Origin: Desulfobacterales bacterium GWB2_56_26
GTDB taxonomy: Bacteria > Desulfobacterota > Desulfobulbia > Desulfobulbales > Desulfocapsaceae
Assembly (NCBI GenBank): GCA_001799365.1
Contig: MGTI01000020.1
Span: 319-60,620 of the forward strand
Reading direction: 5' to 3'
DNA length: 60,302 nucleotides
Both the position numbers and the translations under genes were made by a program. The notes under the pieces were generated by a model that saw only the letters and a list, made by a program, of their open reading frames with translations, was not told where the DNA came from and searched no databases. Positions 21,699 through 32,041 of the stretch are shown one piece after another (position 1 is the first letter of the stretch; the number at the start of each line of letters is the position of its first letter).

Positions 21699-22814
21699 TC
21701 ACAATTGTTTTTTATTTTGCTGGTAGACGTTATCCAGATATTCCTGCGAAAAAACGCTTTTGGTCGGAGTATAATCGACAATGGTCCTGGAGAAATATTC
21801 GACGATGGCCGGATCGAACTGGGTGCCGCTGCACTTGAAAAGTTCCTCGACAGCCTGTTCCATCGTCATGTTTTTCCTGTAATTTCTTCGGGAAGTCATG
21901 GCATCGTAACTGTCAACCACAATAATAATCTTGGTCAGATCGTCGAGTTGATCTCCGGTCAGCCCATCGGGATATCCCTTCCCGTCCATTCTTTCATGAT
22001 GATGCCTGATTATGAACTGCTCCTTGTTCATAAAGCCTAAAGGCTGAATGATGTTTGCGCCGACACTGGGGTGTTTGCGGATCAGAACCCATTCTTCAGC
22101 CGTCAGTTTGCCCGGTTTCTGGATGCAGGAAAGATCGATTACCAGTTTGCCGATGTCGTGGAACTGGGCAGCCCGCCGGAGCACGAGGATCTCGCTTTCG
22201 GTGAGTCCCATGGCGATACTGAGCATCAAAGCATATTCCGTCACCCGCATGGTATGGCCGGCGGTATAGTAATCCTTTTCCTCCATGGCATTCTGGAGGC
22301 TGCTCATCAGTTGGACCGTGGCATTCTCCAGACTATTACTGTAAGTGAGGAGAAGTTTGTTCTGTTCTTCCAGTTGTAGAGCCTTCAGTTGGATATCGTC
22401 TTCCAGAGCGGCTTTATACTGCCTTTCACGGAGAATGAAATTCCTTTTTTCAATAGCCCGACGGATTTTGACGTTGAAAATATCAAGATCCTCGATGGGT
22501 TTTGTCAGAAAATCGTAGGCTCCTAGATTTATCGCCTTCACGGCGTAATCCATCGAGCCGGCACCGGTCAGGAAAAGTACGGGAATATCGAAGTTGAGAT
22601 CGTTTAGCCTGTCCATGGTTTCAAAGCCATCCATGTCGGGCATGTTGATATCGAGGATAATGACATCATAGTTATCATCGACGATATTCAGCACATCCTT
22701 GCCGTCACGGGCGGTGTCGACGCGATGTCCGAACATTTCCAGGATCTTGGAAACCGTAGTCCGGACCATGGCATCATCGTCGGCAATAAGTATTCTGGTC
22801 TGGCCTTTATTCAA
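21699..22814 (-). CDS. Response regulator with HD-GYP c-di-GMP phosphodiesterase domain
   Basis: A 371-residue two-domain protein. The receiver (residues about 7-125) has the acidic ADDD, the phospho-Asp in VIILDINMPDMDG, and the Lys in FLTKPIED. After a helical linker (about 130-165) the HD-GYP domain carries AGHTMRVTEYA, AAQFHDIGKL and HHHERMDGKGYPDGL, with the metal ligands and GYP motif intact. It should hydrolyse c-di-GMP when phosphorylated. The kinase partner is not adjacent; the 12-15 kb relay is 7 kb away. The gene sits directly upstream of gatC in one leftward unit, an unusual partner for translation genes. Confidence 0.92.
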   Translation of the reverse strand: MNKGQTRILIADDDAMVRTTVSKILEMFGHRVDTARDGKDVLNIVDDNYDVIILDINMPDMDGFETMDRLNDLNFDIPVLFLTGAGSMDYAVKAINLGAYDFLTKPIEDLDIFNVKIRRAIEKRNFILRERQYKAALEDDIQLKALQLEEQNKLLLTYSNSLENATVQLMSSLQNAMEEKDYYTAGHTMRVTEYALMLSIAMGLTESEILVLRRAAQFHDIGKLVIDLSCIQKPGKLTAEEWVLIRKHPSVGANIIQPLGFMNKEQFIIRHHHERMDGKGYPDGLTGDQLDDLTKIIIVVDSYDAMTSRRNYRKNMTMEQAVEELFKCSGTQFDPAIVEYFSRTIVDYTPTKSVFSQEYLDNVYQQNKKQL

Positions 22815-22859
22815 AATATGTTTCTCCGATAATCTCCTAGTAGAGAATGCTGACAGAGT

Positions 22860-23924
22860 CTACATTTTCCAATATCTTTTTGCAATGTCCCGCACCCGTT
22901 CGACTGCCGGATGGGGAGCCCGCTCCTTACGCAGGATGGCCTCGGTCTCTTCGTCGAGAAACGAAGGAAAAGGCGTAGTCAGCCTCTCGCCCACCAGTTC
23001 AGAAAGTACTGCAAAAACTCCCTCTCTCAAGCCGGCTGGGTTGTATCCTCCTTCGAGGATAAAAAGAATTCTTCCGCTACATATCTTCTCAGCGAGTTCA
23101 ACAAGCACCTTCGCCATATAGCCAAAACCTTGGTGGGTGAGCCGCATGGAACTGACACAGTCCCCATGATAACCATCGAAACCTGCCGACACCAGTATGA
23201 TTTCAGGTCGGTATTGATGTCCTACCGGAAGGATCAAGGTGTTAAAAATATTGGCGTATTCGAGATCTCCCTGCCCTCCGGGAAGCGGAATGTTCAGGGT
23301 ATAGCCTTCCCCGCTGCCGACCCCCGTTTCAAGATGGGAACCTGTTCCGGGAAAAAGCGGCGATTCGTGAATCGAAACAAAGAGGACTTCCTCGGTATTG
23401 AAAAAGGAATTTTGGGTCCCGTTGCCGTGATGAACGTCCCAGTCGACGATCATCACTCTTTTGAGTCCGTGTCTTTTCAGAGCGTGATGGGCGGCAACAG
23501 CAATATTGTTGAACAGACAGAACCCCATGGAACAGTCTTTCTCGGCATGGTGGCCGGGAGGTCTCACTAAAGCCAGGCCATTAGCAATCTCCCGGTTCAT
23601 GAGAAGATCTATTCCACCAACCAGAGAGCCGGCCGCAAAACAGGCCGCCTCATAGCTTTTGGGGGAGGTAAAGGTATCTTCGTTAAGCACTGAGAAGATT
23701 TTTCCGGCGGTCGCTGCAGCCTTATCTATCTGTTGGGGCGAATGATTCAGCAGGAGTGTTTCCCGCGAAGCTTTGGTTGTGGATGGCTCTATGAAAAGAT
23801 TGTTTTTCGCTAATTCATCCAAAGTAAAAAAGAGTGGAGCTACTCTTTCGGGCGAGTCCAGGTGATCGAATCCGGGATCATGCTCCTGAAACAATTTGCT
23901 TCTGAAGATCGCTGTTTTTCTCAT
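22860..23924 (-). CDS. Histone deacetylase-like (class II, acetoin utilisation-type) deacetylase
   Basis: A zinc-dependent deacetylase-fold protein of 354 residues. Active-site blocks are VRPPGHHAEKDCSMGFCLFNNIAVAA (two His), IVDWDVHHGNGTQ (zinc ligands Asp and His), SAGFDGYHGD (second zinc Asp) and FILEGGYNP. Bacterial members deacetylate acetyl-lysine, acetylpolyamines or small acetylated metabolites; the substrate is unknown here. It is the first gene of the leftward run leading to the HD-GYP regulator and gatCA, with a 45-base gap, and has its own good promoter at 23982-24010. Confidence 0.9.
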   Translation of the reverse strand: MRKTAIFRSKLFQEHDPGFDHLDSPERVAPLFFTLDELAKNNLFIEPSTTKASRETLLLNHSPQQIDKAAATAGKIFSVLNEDTFTSPKSYEAACFAAGSLVGGIDLLMNREIANGLALVRPPGHHAEKDCSMGFCLFNNIAVAAHHALKRHGLKRVMIVDWDVHHGNGTQNSFFNTEEVLFVSIHESPLFPGTGSHLETGVGSGEGYTLNIPLPGGQGDLEYANIFNTLILPVGHQYRPEIILVSAGFDGYHGDCVSSMRLTHQGFGYMAKVLVELAEKICSGRILFILEGGYNPAGLREGVFAVLSELVGERLTTPFPSFLDEETEAILRKERAPHPAVERVRDIAKRYWKM

Positions 23925-23981
23925 TTTTCAATGGCTTAAAGAGTTACCCTCCTTTCTTGTTCCGAAAGAGTTCACGATCTC

Positions 23982-24010
23982 ATTATACCGGAAAATTTTT
24001 CTTTTGACAT
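23982..24010 (-). promoter_or_regulatory. Sigma-70-like promoter for the HDAC-like gene
   Basis: On the minus strand, ATGTCA (24010-24005) and a perfect TATAAT (23987-23982) are separated by 17 bases. The start codon lies 58 bases downstream. The -10 is perfect and the -35 matches four of six positions. Confidence 0.55.
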
Positions 24011-24033
24011 ATGCCCGATAGCTATAAAACAAG

Positions 24034-24064
24034 AACGCAGTTCCAAGCCATGCTGGAACTGCGT
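24034..24064 (-). terminator. Terminator of the yedE-like transporter gene
   Basis: A perfect 12-bp stem, AACGCAGTTCCA with TGGAACTGCGTT, with a 7-base loop. It is 26 bases beyond the transporter stop codon. On the minus strand the stem is followed by a T-rich stretch (CTTGTTTTATAG). Confidence 0.75.
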
Positions 24065-24090
24065 TAACTTACCTATATCTTTTATTATTG

Positions 24091-25335
24091 TTACATTGGA
24101 ACGATGAGCTTGTTGGTCTCTTCATTCCAGGTCACAACCAGATACCATACTATCATCACCGCGAAGATAAGCAACAAAGTCGGCCCATAACCCATGACAT
24201 CAGGAAGATAGACTAACGATCCAAGCACTCCGTTGTCCTCAAATTCCCTGTCTCTGAACCAGGCGGTCATAATTGAGGAAGAGATGGCAAAGAAGGGGAC
24301 AACCATCATAAGCTTTACCTGTCCCTCTCCCACCCGCCAGAGGGTTCCGGAACCGCATCCTCCGGCAAACATGGCGCCAACCCCGAAGATAAACCCGCCG
24401 ACGACACCTCCCCAGCCAAAAGTTCCGCGAACATAGTTGCCCACTGCAAGGACGGCTTCTCCCTCAGTCCGAACCGGCACTGCATATTTCAGAACAGCCG
24501 CGCCTATGGCAACGATGACTATGGAAAGCATCACCGATTTGGCCAAAGTGCAATCACCCGTCATGTGGGGTTCACGAAAGCCCTGAACCATGCACCAGCG
24601 TCCGCGCTGCATGGTATATCCGAGACAGGCGGCAATGACAATAACACCGCTCAGAGATGCTATATAGTCGCTGTCTTCATTAGCTGAATAGGAATAGGCA
24701 GCGTAGAATATGCCAAGCAGTCCTATAAGACCCATCAGGTAGATTACTGCCGAAGGGAACGATATTGTCTTCGATCCTCCTTCCCCCCAACTGATATGTT
24801 CCATTTCTAGATAGAGAAGCTTCAGGCCGAGAATAACGCCGAAAACCAGTCCGAGCATCATCGCGAAACCATTGGCACCGAGATTACCGATGGCATTGTA
24901 AAAGCCACCCACATTGCACCCTCCTGCGAGAGTGGCACCAATGCCCATGAGAATACCTGCTATGACCGCTTTCACCATTTCGCGATAAGGGGGGATACGG
25001 AGAGCGAACTCTTTGCCGAGACAGGCCGAGATAAAGGCCCCTGCGACGAATCCGATACCTATAACCGATCCCGAGTCAAACAGTACTGATTTCGGGGCTT
25101 CATCATAATATCCAAAGATACCGGCATCTGTTCCGAACAGGGTGGCAAGACCATACATTATCCAATCACCCCAGTTTCTTATAGCACCAACAGCCCCCCA
25201 GGGCCGCCACCAGGCCATCATCATGACCGAAAAAAACGCGACAATAACTCCGGTGACATAAGGGTTCCATTCTTTCTCACAAAAAAGAGCATACAATTCT
25301 TTAACTTTATTTTTGAAAACAGATTCTTCGCTCAT
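24091..25335 (-). CDS. yedE: YeeE/YedE-family sulfur (thiosulfate-type) transporter
   Basis: An integral membrane protein of 414 residues, starting at the ATG at 25335 after AGGGGGTTATTG; an upstream in-frame ATG would add 19 residues. About ten hydrophobic segments are visible. Two family cysteine motifs, GATLAGGCNVGGFYNAIGNLG and MFAGGCGSGTLWR, sit in the paired DUF395/sulf_transp halves. Another Cys is in QRGRWCMVQGFRE. E. coli YeeE imports thiosulfate through such cysteines. The gene is divergent from tusA and the DsrE-like genes. The YedE, TusA and DsrE-like gene set is one I recall being proposed as a marker of sulfur disproportionation (YTD cluster). Import or handling of thiosulfate or reduced sulfur is the likely role. 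Confidence 0.9.
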   Translation of the reverse strand: MSEESVFKNKVKELYALFCEKEWNPYVTGVIVAFFSVMMMAWWRPWGAVGAIRNWGDWIMYGLATLFGTDAGIFGYYDEAPKSVLFDSGSVIGIGFVAGAFISACLGKEFALRIPPYREMVKAVIAGILMGIGATLAGGCNVGGFYNAIGNLGANGFAMMLGLVFGVILGLKLLYLEMEHISWGEGGSKTISFPSAVIYLMGLIGLLGIFYAAYSYSANEDSDYIASLSGVIVIAACLGYTMQRGRWCMVQGFREPHMTGDCTLAKSVMLSIVIVAIGAAVLKYAVPVRTEGEAVLAVGNYVRGTFGWGGVVGGFIFGVGAMFAGGCGSGTLWRVGEGQVKLMMVVPFFAISSSIMTAWFRDREFEDNGVLGSLVYLPDVMGYGPTLLLIFAVMIVWYLVVTWNEETNKLIVPM

Positions 25336-25382
25336 CAATAACCCCCTGAAAAATAATCTAACTGTCAAAAACGTTTGTGGAA

Positions 25383-25412
25383 TGATTACCACAACAGTAA
25401 TTTTTTTGTCAA
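25383..25412 (-). promoter_or_regulatory. Promoter of the yedE-like gene
   Basis: On the minus strand a perfect TTGACA (25412-25407) is followed after 18 bases by TAATCA (25388-25383), 48 bases before the yedE start. The -35 is exact and the -10 weaker. Confidence 0.55.
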
Positions 25413-25439
25413 GCGAAACGACTCAAACAATGAGTAATT

Positions 25440-25452
25440 ACTACATTGTAGT
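25440..25452. promoter_or_regulatory. Candidate operator palindrome between yedE and tusA
   Basis: ACTACA-T-TGTAGT, a perfect 6-bp inverted repeat with one central base. It lies upstream of the yedE promoter and 55 bases upstream of the tusA -35, in the middle of the divergent intergenic region. No regulator gene is adjacent. The palindrome is seen directly; its role as an operator is inference. Confidence 0.4.
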
Positions 25453-25506
25453 ATGACTTTTTAATATTGTTATATTCGCAACTTACAGATGCTTTTGTTT
25501 CCTTGC

Positions 25507-25535
25507 TTGACATAATTAAGACGCTCAAGTATAGG
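25507..25535 (+). promoter_or_regulatory. Promoter of tusA and the DsrE-like genes
   Basis: A perfect TTGACA (25507-25512), 17-base spacer and TATAGG (25530-25535). This predicts a 5' leader of about 95 bases before the tusA ATG. Confidence 0.7.
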
Positions 25536-25584
25536 TCAAATTATAGATATACCTTATCAAGTACACAAAATGGAGTTAACCTAC

Positions 25585-25598
25585 GACGCACGTGCGTC
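25585..25598. promoter_or_regulatory. Perfect 14-bp palindrome in the tusA leader
   Basis: GACGCACGTGCGTC lies about 45 bases downstream of the predicted start site and 40 bases upstream of the tusA ATG. It is GC-rich in an otherwise AT-rich leader, so it stands out. It could be a repressor operator or an RNA hairpin; neither can be decided from sequence. Confidence 0.4.
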
Positions 25599-25637
25599 TA
25601 TCGTATATTCAACTCTTTTTATTTCAGGAGAACGATT

Positions 25638-25895
25638 ATGAGTGATTTTAAAAAGGTTCCAGACAATGTTGTCCCGAAAACAATACTTGATGCGAAGGGA
25701 CTGAGTTGCCCGATGCCGCTTCTACGGACAAAAAAAGAGATCGGTAAGCTCGCCTCCGGAGAAATACTTCAGGTAGATGGTACTGATCCAGGCTCACGCA
25801 ATGACATCCCCGGCTGGTGCGAAAGAGCCGGTCATACTTATGTAGGTGAGAGAGAAGGTGCTGGATTTATTTCCTTCTTTATTAAAAAAGGATAA
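25638..25895 (+). CDS. tusA: TusA-family sulfur carrier protein
   Basis: A cytoplasmic sulfur carrier of 85 residues, start at 25638 after AGGAGAACGATT. The TusA signature is LDAKGLSCPMPLLRTKKEI with the persulfide-accepting Cys24. A second cysteine, Cys61, is in IPGWCERAGH, and the C-terminus GAGFISFFIKK matches the family. In sulfur-oxidising and disproportionating bacteria TusA passes sulfane sulfur to or from DsrE-type proteins. It lies divergent from the YedE-like transporter and upstream of DsrE-like genes, with a hairpin terminator in between, which suggests that tusA is made in excess of the downstream genes. Confidence 0.93.
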   Translation: MSDFKKVPDNVVPKTILDAKGLSCPMPLLRTKKEIGKLASGEILQVDGTDPGSRNDIPGWCERAGHTYVGEREGAGFISFFIKKG

Positions 25896-25936
25896 TGCTG
25901 TTTTGGTGTATTTGTAAGGATCGTTAACACAAACTC

Positions 25937-25989
25937 ATACTCTAAATACGTTCAGTTTATGTTTCTGTTCGTGTTTAGAGTATTTTTTT
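25937..25989 (+). terminator. Hairpin with T run between tusA and the DsrE-like genes
   Basis: A 14-base stem with one mismatch (ATACTCTAAATACG with CGTGTTTAGAGTAT), a 19-base loop, and seven Ts directly after. It is 41 bases after the tusA stop and 51 bases before the next start. No clear promoter follows it, so it probably acts as a partial terminator that lowers expression of the downstream genes relative to tusA. Confidence 0.75.
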
Positions 25990-26040
25990 ATCGAATGAGG
26001 CTAGAGAATAATTTATTACCTTCCTTTTGGAGGAACCAAC

Positions 26041-26355
26041 ATGGCAAAAAGCTTAGGTATATTCGTTACCACACCGGGCAGCCTGAACCACGTCATAGGT
26101 ATTACAAAAGCTGCTAAGAAAAAAGGTTCAACGGTAAAAGTCTTTTTTACCTGGAAAGCCACGACACTTGCAAAAGATCCCGCTTTTCCTGGTCTTTGCG
26201 AACTTGCCGATGATGTCTCCATATGCGTCGACAGCTACAAAAAACAAGGGTTTTCTGTCGATGACGTACCGGTCGGTCTCACTCCGAAAAAAATGGCTAC
26301 ACAAGCCCAACATGGCATAATTATAGAAGACTTTGACTGTTATTTAAGTCTGTAA
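26041..26355 (+). CDS. DsrE-like small sulfur-relay protein, first
   Basis: A 104-residue protein with a strong ribosome binding site (TTGGAGGAACCAAC). The beginning SLGIFVTTPGSLNHVIGITKAAKKKGSTVKVFFTWKA has the alternating strand-helix pattern of the DsrE/F (YchN) fold. Cysteines lie at residues 53, 62 and 100; Cys100 in DFDCYLSL is near the C-terminus. The conserved Cys position of DsrE cannot be aligned by eye with certainty. Thirteen bases separate it from the next gene. Cluster context supports a role in passing sulfane sulfur with TusA. The DsrE-like call is moderate. Confidence 0.65.
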   Translation: MAKSLGIFVTTPGSLNHVIGITKAAKKKGSTVKVFFTWKATTLAKDPAFPGLCELADDVSICVDSYKKQGFSVDDVPVGLTPKKMATQAQHGIIIEDFDCYLSL

Positions 26356-26368
26356 GGAGGATTGTGAT

Positions 26369-26671
26369 ATGAGCTATAAAAAGGTATGTCTTTTGTACAG
26401 GCACCCGGATTACGCCATTGACGGCATACGGTCAGCTTTGGGACTCGCAGTCGAAAATATGTATGCGTACGGTGTCGTCATGGATACAGAGATCCCAAAA
26501 CTGGACGAGTTAACGCAGGAAAGCATAGAAATGCTCCGCGATATGGAGGGTGAAGTATATTCAACGGTGCCCGCCAATGTCGAGAAGAACGGATTCGAGG
26601 CTCTAACTCTCGAAGAACTCGGTGAAAAACTTCGTGATATGACTCATATAATCCCGTACGGATTAAAATAA
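26369..26671 (+). CDS. Conserved small protein of the sulfur cluster (DsrE/F-like)
   Basis: A 100-residue protein starting after AAGGAGGATTGTGAT. It opens VCLLYRHPDYAIDGIRSALGLAVENMYAYGVVMDTEIP, resembling a DsrE/DsrF strand-helix-strand unit, and has one cysteine, Cys7. The centre is acidic (residues 43-90) and the end is MTHIIPYGLK. It is probably a partner of the preceding DsrE-like protein, in the way that TusD, TusC and TusB form a heterohexamer. The fold assignment is by pattern only. Confidence 0.6.
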   Translation: MSYKKVCLLYRHPDYAIDGIRSALGLAVENMYAYGVVMDTEIPKLDELTQESIEMLRDMEGEVYSTVPANVEKNGFEALTLEELGEKLRDMTHIIPYGLK

Positions 26672-26688
26672 TTCAAGGAGCATTGACT

Positions 26689-26862
26689 ATGAAAATATTG
26701 AATATTTATAAATCCGCCCCGGACGAGACAGTCCAGAAGCTGGTCAAAATAGTCACCCGGGACCGGGAATCGGATTCTTTTGACCTGAATATAGAAAAGC
26801 CGGATTATGATGTCTTGGTTGACAAAATTTTTGCAGCGGATCAAACCATCTGCTGGTGGTGA
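26689..26862 (+). CDS. 57-residue protein ending in Cys-Trp-Trp, last gene of the sulfur cluster
   Basis: A short gene preceded by TCAAGGAGCATTGACT, 17 bases after the previous stop, running to TGA at 26860-26862. The protein begins MKILNIYKSAPDETVQKLVKIV, has a charged middle and ends AADQTICWW, with a single Cys55. DsrH/TusB proteins are also short and end in a Trp-containing tail, so a reduced DsrH-like role is possible. I do not recognise a family. Good spacing, a strong ribosome binding site and placement in the cluster support it being real. Confidence 0.6.
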   Translation: MKILNIYKSAPDETVQKLVKIVTRDRESDSFDLNIEKPDYDVLVDKIFAADQTICWW

Positions 26863-26887
26863 TAATATTTCCTCATCGCCCTGTTAC

Positions 26888-26924
26888 AAGACCCGATTGA
26901 TCTAATTCTGCTCGATCGGGTCTT
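26888..26924. terminator. Bidirectional hairpin between the sulfur cluster and the serine hydrolase gene
   Basis: AAGACCCGAT pairs with ATCGGGTCTT around a 17-base loop. The right arm overlaps the last codons of the serine hydrolase. Flanking T/A-rich stretches are short. Confidence 0.5.
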
Positions 26925-28032
26925 CGTCTTTCGTTAGATATTTCATTATCGTATCGTGAAGAAGGGGTCTTAATCTCCTGATAGGTGCGGGATCGTCTCC
27001 CATAAGTACTCTGTTGGTGAGCAGGACAATTGCCAAACCTTTAGCAATATCCAGCCAGAAGGAAGTTCCGGTAAAACCTAAGTGACCTACTGTTGTTGCC
27101 GAAAATAGCCTTCCGCTGCTTGAAGTCCCCAAAGAAGGAGTATCAAAACCATAGGTCCAGGTCGATCCCGACCTTTTAGTTAAGAATTCTCTGAGAATAT
27201 CCGCTCCGTAGGCGGGATGTTTCTTTATCCCCCTGTATTGCAGCAACAGGTTTTCGAGCAGTGATAAAACGCCGGAGGCGGTGCCGAAGAGGCCCGCGTG
27301 TCCGGCTACCCCACCTAGCATCCGGCAGTTATCATCATGAACTATGCCGCAGAGCCTCTTTCCCGACCAGTTGCATACTCCCGTAACGGCGTAGACCTCG
27401 CTTCCCAAATCACCCGGGCCTGGAAAGAACAACTTTTTTTGCAGACCCATCGGTTGCGCTATCTCTTCTTGCCAGAAGTCAGCCAGGGACTTTTTTGTTA
27501 TTTTTTCTAACAAACATCCCAGGAGGATGAACCCAAGGTCACTGTAAAGAGTGTTGCTGCCTGGCTGAAACACTAAATTTTCACTACATATCAATCTGAC
27601 GATTGCTTCGTTTCTATCACTTTGTTGACATTCAGCAAGCACCTTGTAATACGGTTTATGAGCCGGCAGGCCAGAAGAATGACTGAGCAGCATGGACAGG
27701 CGGATCATTCCTATTTCGCTTCTTATCTCATTAAAATATTTACCTAATTCATCTTCAAGCCGTAGTTTACCTTTTTCAACCAGAGTCATGACCGAGAGAG
27801 CGGTGACCAGAGGTTTTGTTAACGAAGCAAGATCATAGATCGTTGCCTTGTCTACTCTTCTGCCTTCCTCATGGCGATCAGTGCAGCCAAAGTGATGGGT
27901 ATGTTGATATGCCTTACCTTTTTCGAAATTGAGATAACCAATCGAACATCCTGAAAACACATTATTTTTCAGAGATTCAGAAATGATTTTGGTAAGTTCT
28001 TCCAACAGGTTTCTCTTAGACCGTTTTTCCAT
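26902..28032 (-). CDS. Beta-lactamase/class C-like serine hydrolase
   Basis: A 376-residue serine hydrolase of the beta-lactamase/transpeptidase-like superfamily. The nucleophile motif SxxK is in LASLTKPLV (about residue 71), the Tyr motif in TLYSDLGFILLG (YxN replaced by YSD), and the third motif is HLGFTGTSFWLD. There is no signal peptide, so it is probably cytoplasmic, unlike true beta-lactamases. Substrates of such proteins are mostly unknown (esters, D-peptides). It is convergent with the sulfur cluster and divergent from dnaN across a 356-base AT-rich gap. Confidence 0.85.
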   Translation of the reverse strand: MEKRSKRNLLEELTKIISESLKNNVFSGCSIGYLNFEKGKAYQHTHHFGCTDRHEEGRRVDKATIYDLASLTKPLVTALSVMTLVEKGKLRLEDELGKYFNEIRSEIGMIRLSMLLSHSSGLPAHKPYYKVLAECQQSDRNEAIVRLICSENLVFQPGSNTLYSDLGFILLGCLLEKITKKSLADFWQEEIAQPMGLQKKLFFPGPGDLGSEVYAVTGVCNWSGKRLCGIVHDDNCRMLGGVAGHAGLFGTASGVLSLLENLLLQYRGIKKHPAYGADILREFLTKRSGSTWTYGFDTPSLGTSSSGRLFSATTVGHLGFTGTSFWLDIAKGLAIVLLTNRVLMGDDPAPIRRLRPLLHDTIMKYLTKDEDPIEQN

Positions 28033-28388
28033 GCTCAGTTCTATTATTCTGTTGAATATTTTACCTAATTTTACTAGATTGTATGAGTGGTTCGCTGTAT
28101 ATATATCTCTGATATTTCGTGGAAATATGTCACCTTCTTATTATTCCACCATTCCTTGTCAGTGCACTTATCAACAGACTGTCAACAGCAGAATGTTTAA
28201 TGCTGGTGGATGCTCTGTTTGTAATACTGTTCATAAATTTTCTCCAACAAAATAATTTTTAAATAAACCTCGTTATGTTGAAAAATTAGTTTGAAAAAAC
28301 AAAGAGATATACATTTATTACACACTTTCAGCGCACTAATAAGAGTAAAAGAAAGATAAATAAAGGTAAGACAAAAGGAGTCTCTTTT
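28033..28388. other. AT-rich intergenic region upstream of dnaN, possible origin-related sequence
   Basis: No gene is seen in these 356 bases. One near-consensus DnaA box, TTATCAACA, lies at 28168-28176. A run rich in A and T follows at about 28225-28330. The dnaN ribosome binding site AAGGAGTCTCTTTT is at the right end. The position beside dnaN and gyrB fits an origin-proximal site, but one box is not enough to call oriC. Confidence 0.35.
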
Positions 28389-29519
28389 ATGCCATTGAAA
28401 TTTACCGTATCACAAAACAACCTTCTTGAAGGCCTTAACAGCCTCCAGAATATAACGAATAAAAAAGGTACGTTAGCTATTCTTAACAATGTTTTAATAG
28501 AGTCAACCGGAGGAGGGCTGCTTTTAACGGGGACAGATTTGGAGGTAGGATTGCGAATTGTCATTCCTGCTGAAATCCAGGACGAAGGATCCCTTACCTT
28601 ACCTTCCAAGAAAATTTTCGAGATAGTCAGGGAGTCGGGTTCGCAACTTATCTCTATTGAAGAAAGTGAAAATAGCTGGGTCATCATAAGGGCCGGACTC
28701 AGTACCTATAATCTTGCCGGGATGCCAAGCGATGAATTTCCAGAATTCCCGGAATACGACCAAGAGAATTTTATTTCCTTTGAATCACACATCTTTCTCG
28801 AACTTATAGAGAAAGTTATCTTCTCGATCGCCAATGAGCAAGAGAATATGTACTCCTTGACATCGGTTCTCTTCGAGAAGGATAAAATCGGCGATTCTCA
28901 TTACTTACGGATGGTTTCCTCGGATGGTCACAGGCTTTCTATCATGCAGAAAGAAGTTGCGGCAGATGTCGAAAAACTCCTTCTGAATAACGTAACACTG
29001 ATACCTAAAAAAGGAATACATGAGTGGAAAAAGTTTTGTGAAAACAGGGACACCATCGACTTATCGTTCGAAAAGAAACAGCTTGTTCTGCGGGATAAGA
29101 ACGCGATTATGATAATACGCCTGAAAGGCGGAGAATTCCCACAATATTCAGCCATCGTTGAGGCAATAGAACTTTCCAACTGTCTGAAAATAAAAAGAAT
29201 ACCTTTTTTAGAATCGCTGAAAAGAATAAATCTTTTCACAGAAGATATCTTCCATACCATCCAACTGAAGGTGGAACGAGAAAAGATGATTCTCTCCTCC
29301 CAGAATGCCGACCTGGGCAATGCCAAGGATGAGCAAGCCATTTCATATGAAGGGGACCCGCTCACGCTTGGGTTCAACTGCCGTTACTTTATCGAAACCT
29401 TAGGGGTTATGGACTGTGAAACAGTCGAGGCATACATAAACAGCAATAGCAGTCCGTGTCTTATGAAATCTGATGACGATAAAGGCTTCATCAGTATCAT
29501 CATGCCAATGCAGTTGTAA
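28389..29519 (+). CDS. dnaN: DNA polymerase III beta subunit (sliding clamp)
   Basis: The ring-shaped processivity clamp. The protein has 376 residues, normal for the family, with three clamp domains. Recognisable parts are LKFTVSQNNLLEGLNSLQNITNKKGTLAILNNVLIE at the N-terminus, NLAGMPSDEFPEFPE, RMVSSDGHRLS, LKGGEFPQYSAIV and the C-terminal PCLMKSDDDKGFISIIMPMQL. dnaA is not the left neighbour (a serine hydrolase gene is), so the usual dnaA-dnaN-recF-gyrB order is broken: dnaN is followed directly by gyrB and gyrA. A hairpin repeat starts two bases after the stop codon. Confidence 0.96.
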   Translation: MPLKFTVSQNNLLEGLNSLQNITNKKGTLAILNNVLIESTGGGLLLTGTDLEVGLRIVIPAEIQDEGSLTLPSKKIFEIVRESGSQLISIEESENSWVIIRAGLSTYNLAGMPSDEFPEFPEYDQENFISFESHIFLELIEKVIFSIANEQENMYSLTSVLFEKDKIGDSHYLRMVSSDGHRLSIMQKEVAADVEKLLLNNVTLIPKKGIHEWKKFCENRDTIDLSFEKKQLVLRDKNAIMIIRLKGGEFPQYSAIVEAIELSNCLKIKRIPFLESLKRINLFTEDIFHTIQLKVEREKMILSSQNADLGNAKDEQAISYEGDPLTLGFNCRYFIETLGVMDCETVEAYINSNSSPCLMKSDDDKGFISIIMPMQL

Positions 29520-29521
29520 GG

Positions 29522-32041
<2,520 letters not shown>

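Follow-up and report, generated by a model that had tools for sequence, protein, structure and literature searches.

The YTD gene cluster of sulfur disproportionators, reportedly introduced by Umezawa et al. in 2020, comprises yedE, tusA, a dsrE-like gene and two conserved hypothetical genes. The same gene neighborhood underlies DsrEFH type II, defined in May 2026 as DsrE, DsrF and DsrH encoded beside tusA and yeeE/yedE (PMC13293266). In cable bacteria, DsrEFH type II accepts sulfur from TusA in vitro via one DsrE cysteine (Cys67 in E. aureum) and hands it to DsrC, and reductive dsrAB is present in 73.9% of the genomes that have dsrEFH type II (PMC13293266). A DsrEFH-like complex has been modeled for the same genes (PMC13047784). 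Here, we describe a copy of this cluster located at positions 24091–26862 of a 60,302-nt stretch of DNA (the window) from contig MGTI01000020.1 of Desulfobacterales bacterium GWB2_56_26 (GCA_001799365.1; a 4.5-Mb assembly, 89% complete). Its genes are as follows (aa, amino acids).

24091–25335, minus strand: yeeE/yedE-family sulfur transporter gene, 414 aa from the ATG at 25335
25638–25895, plus strand: tusA, 85 aa, sulfur-carrier motif CPMP
26041–26355, plus strand: dsrE of type II, 104 aa, active-site cysteine C62 (ICVDS)
26369–26671, plus strand: dsrF of type II, 100 aa
26689–26862, plus strand: dsrH of type II, 57 aa, C-terminal WW

Gene content and conservation of the cluster

The original prediction, made from the nucleotide sequence, described yedE opposite tusA, which is followed by three genes for proteins of 104, 100 and 57 aa, and all five open reading frames were confirmed. 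Each start codon is preceded by a purine-rich ribosome-binding stretch (detected by eye), and further in-frame starts of yedE are present at 25338 (TTG) and 25392 (GTG). The yedE and tusA products matched the Pfam families Sulf_transp (E 1.1e-48) and TusA (E 5.8e-23), respectively. The designation YTD, also proposed in the prediction, is borne out, as the gene content fits the definitions in PMC12998232 and PMC13293266 with no difference from the cluster of disproportionators. The window therefore carries a real, complete and well-conserved copy of the published YTD gene cluster.

Relatives of the 104-aa protein were identified in 56 of the 58 genomes of the same order (own genome counted). 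Across the phylum, 53 of 297 sampled genomes contain one, and 12 of these 53 belong to the order. A scan of viral contigs yielded no relative. The order sampled here is presumably Desulfobulbales: the nearest named relatives in the DsrE scan were Desulfobulbaceae, Desulforhopalus and Desulfopila, and Desulforhopalus has been placed in the family Desulfocapsaceae of Desulfobulbales (PMC12998232). The cluster is thus close to core for the order.

Conservation of the small genes beside yedE-tusA in other genomes, on which the prediction depended, was also observed. The order tusA-dsrE-dsrF-dsrH is kept at 55 of 56 loci of the order, the sole exception stopping at a contig edge, while yedE is divergent at 39 of the 56, co-directional at 3 and beyond the fetched stretch at 14. 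Outside the order, 41 genomes had a match, and loci were fetched for 33 of them; 21 of the 33 retain tusA-dsrE-dsrF-dsrH, and a yedE match was co-directional at 23, divergent at none and not found at 10. Since the divergent arrangement occurs at 39 loci of the order and at 0/33 outside it, it looks like an innovation of the order.

Five loci of order members (L056, L093, L003, L019 and L026) contain tusA-dsrEFH without yedE adjoining tusA. Desulfurivibrio sp. AMeS2 (L093) has a yedE match (48%) approximately 5.3 kb downstream; L056 has no yedE match within 10 kb, and ABC-transporter-like genes were seen by eye upstream. Three genomes of the order (G023, G031 and G010) each contain a second, more distant DsrE-type copy.

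DsrEFH type II and a probable sulfur relay

We assign the three small window proteins to DsrEFH type II as its DsrE, DsrF and DsrH. Their genes are syntenic beside tusA and yeeE/yedE, as in the described systems, and the likeness to the cable-bacterial cluster extends to all five genes, with tusA in one operon with dsrE-dsrF-dsrH and yeeE/yedE adjacent, to one conserved DsrE cysteine and to the presence of reductive-type dsr genes in the genome. Pfam and NCBIfam searches with the 104-, 100- and 57-aa proteins gave no meaningful match, and phmmer and profile searches of solved structures returned nothing significant for any of them (for DsrE alignment A1, the DsrE-family entry 2qs7 appeared at E 0.49; hemagglutinin matches at E 0.4–1.2 were discarded as chance). 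The statement that two of the small proteins lack a firm family is hence true of the databases but outdated, as PMC13293266 assigns them as DsrF and DsrH and they have therefore already been explained in print.

The candidate active-site residue C62 of DsrE is invariant in all 30 rows of alignment A1, and its motif was found in 89 of 89 distinct relatives. Judging by motif and context, C62 is the likely equivalent of E. aureum Cys67, from which it differs in position. Of the 30 alignment members, 26 had a Pfam DsrE match with an E value of 1 or lower, the window's own copy being unmatched. Although the 100-aa protein lacks a sequence match, its predicted structure has the DsrE/DsrF fold. The length of 57 aa is kept in 82 of 83 distinct relatives of the smallest protein and the C-terminus CWW or SWW in all 83; synteny, together with PMC13293266, points to its identity as DsrH. 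Canonical DsrEFH type I is different: neither phmmer nor profile searches of solved structures matched the window proteins to the Allochromatium vinosum complex (PDB 2HY5), and type I adjoins oxidative-type dsr genes, whereas the window cluster lies outside the dsr operon, with dsrABD on another contig.

The prediction had also drawn attention to the transport cysteines of the YeeE-like protein. C140, C248 and C327 of YedE align with cysteines of the solved YeeE/TsuA structures, which we take to be the transport cysteines, and are present in 66 of 66 aligned YedE sequences. Both halves of the thiosulfate transporter TsuA/YeeE (PDB 6LEO) align with the window protein, but in swapped order. The scores of YedE are below the cut-offs of the curated TsuA families (99.6 of 645 bits for NF041049; 86.3 of 400 bits for NF052577) and of the selenium-related YedE/FdhT families (103 of 350 bits for NF033796; 37.4 of 200 bits for TIGR04112). 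The CPxP motif of TusA is conserved in 83 of 83 distinct relatives.

Further components of a sulfur pathway are encoded elsewhere in the genome. A dsrA gene scoring over the cut-off is located on contig C249 with dsrB adjoining, and dsrD lies beside them (PF08679, E 9.5e-28), which by convention indicates the reductive type. Of the 58 genomes of the order, 15 were examined for dsrA (own plus 14, our choice), and all of them have it over the cut-off, including the two without a dsrE match. The genome also contains four DsrC-family genes, aprA and two Sat-family matches just below the curated cut-off (G000:C111:6218–7312 and G000:C205:5967–6971; 305.8 and 291.9 of 322.95 bits). One of these Sat-family matches sits within a 617-aa open frame, perhaps a fusion.

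The cluster is probably explained by sulfur import and relay along the path YedE, TusA, DsrEFH, DsrC and DsrAB. The observations behind this are the genes themselves, the cysteines, synteny, the DsrF fold and the co-occurring dsrA, dsrB, dsrD, DsrC-family genes, aprA and sub-cut-off Sat matches. The YedE cysteines would pass sulfane sulfur (polysulfide or thiosulfate sulfur) across the membrane, the TusA CPxP cysteine would carry it onward, and C62 of DsrE, within a DsrEFH heterotrimer, would take it from TusA. DsrC would then receive the sulfur from DsrE and feed reductive-type DsrAB running in the oxidizing direction to sulfite, which AprA and then Sat may convert to sulfate. The heterotrimer and the TusA-to-DsrC transfer are proposed for this lineage by analogy with cable bacteria (PMC13293266). 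We infer the import substrate, the direction in vivo and actual sulfur oxidation or disproportionation by this organism. As to whether ordinary sulfate reducers may run the pathway in reverse, the cluster provides a strong genomic lead (PMC13293266).

Several points weigh against this relay. Thiosulfate left cable-bacterial TusA, DsrEFH and DsrC without persulfidation (PMC13293266), and the complex has been regarded as a structural analog non-orthologous to DsrEFH, with a role in disproportionation favored (PMC13047784). For the window proteins, the assignment of DsrF by Foldseek alone yields nothing at E 0.001 or better (best E 0.0023), and Foldseek alone was indecisive for the putative fold of DsrH. 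YedE is under every curated NCBIfam cut-off matched, and the imported substrate is thus a putative assignment. Moreover, the organism is known from the genes of an 89%-complete assembly, the biochemistry is that of cable bacteria, and the oxidizing direction of reductive DsrAB is unproven at the enzyme level.

The original prediction went further in presenting the cluster as a genomic marker, i.e. a specific machine, of sulfur disproportionation, which we consider unlikely. All five YTD proteins are indeed more abundant during thiosulfate disproportionation in Desulfolithobacter dissulfuricans (PMC9751629), and the cluster is present in every elemental sulfur (S0) disproportionator of the Desulfobacterota/Nitrospirota set, as well as in Desulfofustis glycolicus and Desulforhopalus singaporensis, for which there is positive evidence of at least one form of disproportionation (PMC12998232). 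Because these S0 disproportionators and the two relatives carry the cluster, it may contribute to the oxidative half of disproportionation. On the other hand, 56 of the 58 order genomes carry the dsrE gene, a count of genes alone, published counts speak against a marker, and PMC12998232 rejects YTD as a stand-alone marker while retaining it as a candidate for S0 disproportionation. The naming and a possible role consequently stand, the marker claim is unsupported, and the disproportionation reading is possible yet unspecific; by itself, the cluster probably does not mark sulfur disproportionation. A module for assimilation, tRNA thiolation or selenium metabolism (YeeE-YeeD thiosulfate uptake, a TusBCD-like relay or YedE-YedF) is very improbable, given that YedE is far below the curated cut-offs for YedE/FdhT (103 of 350 bits) and TsuA (99.6 of 645 and 86.3 of 400 bits) and that reductive dsrAB accompanies dsrEFH type II in 73.9% of genomes (PMC13293266).

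Control region of the cluster

The five genes have been published before and characterized in part. Their control architecture (divergent promoters, a palindrome and a tusA-dsrE hairpin) is a modest addition that is apparently undescribed: these features are without description in the text consulted of the DsrEFH type II papers, the words “terminator” and “promoter” are absent from the main text of PMC13293266, and no terminator or operator of the cluster was found in the literature searched by gene and element terms (supplements and subscription journals lay outside its scope). The elements recognized in the window are listed below.

25385–25412, minus strand: yedE promoter, −35 TTGACA (25412–25407), −10-like GGTAAT (25390–25385)
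25439–25453, no strand: palindrome TACTACA-T-TGTAGTA, operator-like, situated 26 bp before the −35 of yedE
25507–25535, plus strand: tusA promoter, TTGACA-N17-TATAGG
25585–25598, predicted tusA leader: perfect 14-bp palindrome GACGCACGTGCGTC
25937–25983, plus strand: stem-loop with a T-tract behind it, between tusA and dsrE (−20.7 kcal/mol compared to a mean of −6.2 for shuffles), a candidate leaky or conditional terminator
26888–26924, plus strand: stem-loop, candidate end-of-operon terminator after dsrH (−19.6 kcal/mol, tail TCTTTCGT)

The 110 loci yielded 90 usable divergent regions, of which 66 remained once near-duplicates were removed. The pattern TTGACW-N15-18-TANANN was found on the tusA strand of 47 of these regions (1.5 expected; expected counts for the promoter pattern were derived from shuffles) and on the yedE strand of 49 (1.3 expected), TTGACW alone being present on the yedE strand of all 66. 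The −10 of yedE in the window, read by eye, departs from the exact pattern. The promoter and palindrome patterns were picked after viewing the window and its near relatives, which stay in the counts. Clear promoters on both sides had been predicted, and this is upheld by conservation, although a generic sigma70 scan singled out neither (6 sites compared to 4.1 expected).

Between the divergent promoters lies the palindrome, with the consensus TACYACAnTGTRGTA, a 7-1-7 inverted repeat, an architecture known from Fur-family boxes. It occurs with up to two mismatches in 17 of the 66 regions (0.14 expected; window counted) and with up to three in 31 (2.68 expected). Among 39 more distant regions (yedE less than 70% identical) the corresponding numbers are 5 (0.06 expected) and 14 (1.26 expected). 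The promoter pair with the operator-like palindrome between probably controls the cluster.

In Desulfosediminicola flagellatus (L043) and Desulfopila aestuarii (L044), the palindrome (with one and two mismatches, respectively) is placed 32–33 bp before tusA, in the leader, and an additional degenerate copy was seen by eye nearer yedE. The 14-bp palindrome GACGCACGTGCGTC was rejected as a conserved element: the nearest relative (L031) retains only part of it, and it was seen in no other region inspected.

In a search for a regulon, a single site of the whole genome matched the exact palindrome pattern. With one mismatch, four further places were found, compared to two for a reversed control pattern, which is about chance. 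One of them lies in a promoter-like stretch upstream of a gene for a DsrC-family paralog (L125:10957–11522; G000:C13), whose C-terminus lacks the cysteines of true DsrC; at the other three only open frames are listed. This link to a DsrC-like gene was dismissed as chance, as among 16 paralog loci from other genomes of the order (L190–L205, taken whole) the palindrome appeared with up to three mismatches in two and with up to two mismatches in none.

The hairpin between tusA and dsrE was analyzed in the same 110 loci, of which two lack tusA; the 108 spacers gave 81 non-redundant ones (more than 90% alike removed), which does not render the remaining loci independent. A stem of −10 kcal/mol or less with a T-rich tail was detected in 54 of the 81 spacers compared to 6.1 expected, the tail score, energy cut-off and hairpin search rule being our own choices and the T-rich tail a part of the rule. 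Among the control stretches, no hairpin was detected in the dsrE-dsrF (0/4) and dsrF-dsrH (0/40) spacers, the others being too short, and the start of the dsrE coding sequence gave 9 of 81 (9.9 expected). Two further control stretches were also in excess, i.e. the end of the tusA coding sequence (22 of 81 compared to 11.9) and the stretch of 130 nt preceding tusA (13 of 81 compared to 5.9). The stems diverge in sequence (median similarity 0.46), and Desulfofustis-like loci show paired changes (A-T to C-G, G-C to A-T). The hairpin is no general feature: a stem of −10 kcal/mol or less was detected in 1 of 22 spacers outside the order (0.4 expected) and in 7 of 27 further loci within it (0.5 expected), so that its distribution is restricted to part of the order. 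The hairpin ends a median of 26 nt (18–82) before dsrE, and upstream transcripts reaching dsrEFH must therefore cross it.

A second hairpin, after dsrH, was found in 67 of 77 loci (11.5 expected). At the 46 loci with both, the TransTerm-like tail score of the internal hairpin (median 2.15) is lower than that of the terminal one (3.47; p 0.0007), which fits a leaky terminator, but the evidence is mixed: the number of T residues in the next 10 bases is alike (6.2 and 6.0), stem energies show no clear difference (p 0.11), and in the window the tail of the internal hairpin is better than that of the terminal one. The expression of dsrEFH, above that of yeeD (tusA) in Ca. Electronema aureum and about equal to it in Desulfurivibrio alkaliphilus (PMC13047784), argues against constant termination. 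Based on these expression data, the distribution in part of the order and the mixed tail evidence, we propose that the tusA-dsrE hairpin may be a leaky or conditional terminator.

A close rival, to which we give somewhat less than an even chance, is that the hairpin is an mRNA processing or stability element protecting the end of the tusA or dsrEFH transcript. Such an element is favored by the expression data (PMC13047784), provided that the two species carry the hairpin, and by the hairpin of Desulfurivibrio sp. AMeS2 (L093, same hairpin as L019), which combines a strong stem with a mediocre T-tail. It is opposed by the good T-tracts behind the stems of the window and of the near relatives L031–L034, although these were selected by the rule and are no separate evidence, and by the gap between hairpin and dsrE, which at a median of 26 nt (18–82) is too short for a promoter in between.

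As a leaky or conditional terminator, the hairpin may let the levels of TusA and DsrEFH be set apart. A tentative, and rather doubtful, extension is that the oxidative relay of Desulfobulbales is gated twice, by a putative, undescribed regulator at TACYACAnTGTRGTA and by this terminator between tusA and dsrEFH. If true, TusA would be available for general use and DsrEFH would be added only when sulfur goes to DsrC and reverse DsrAB, and the double gating would switch cells from reducing sulfate to oxidizing or disproportionating sulfur and back. The near-core presence of the cluster and the conserved layout of promoters, palindrome and hairpin offer handles on when the relay switches on.

Genomic surroundings

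In the window (21699–32041), one flank of the cluster is occupied by an HD-GYP response regulator/histone-deacetylase-like gene. The other flank consists of a beta-lactamase-fold gene, then dnaN and gyrB, the last two named from sequence alone. Among 80 named loci, relatives of dnaN were found at 38 and relatives of gyrB at 35, which indicates that the position of the cluster near dnaN-gyrB is fixed in part of the order.

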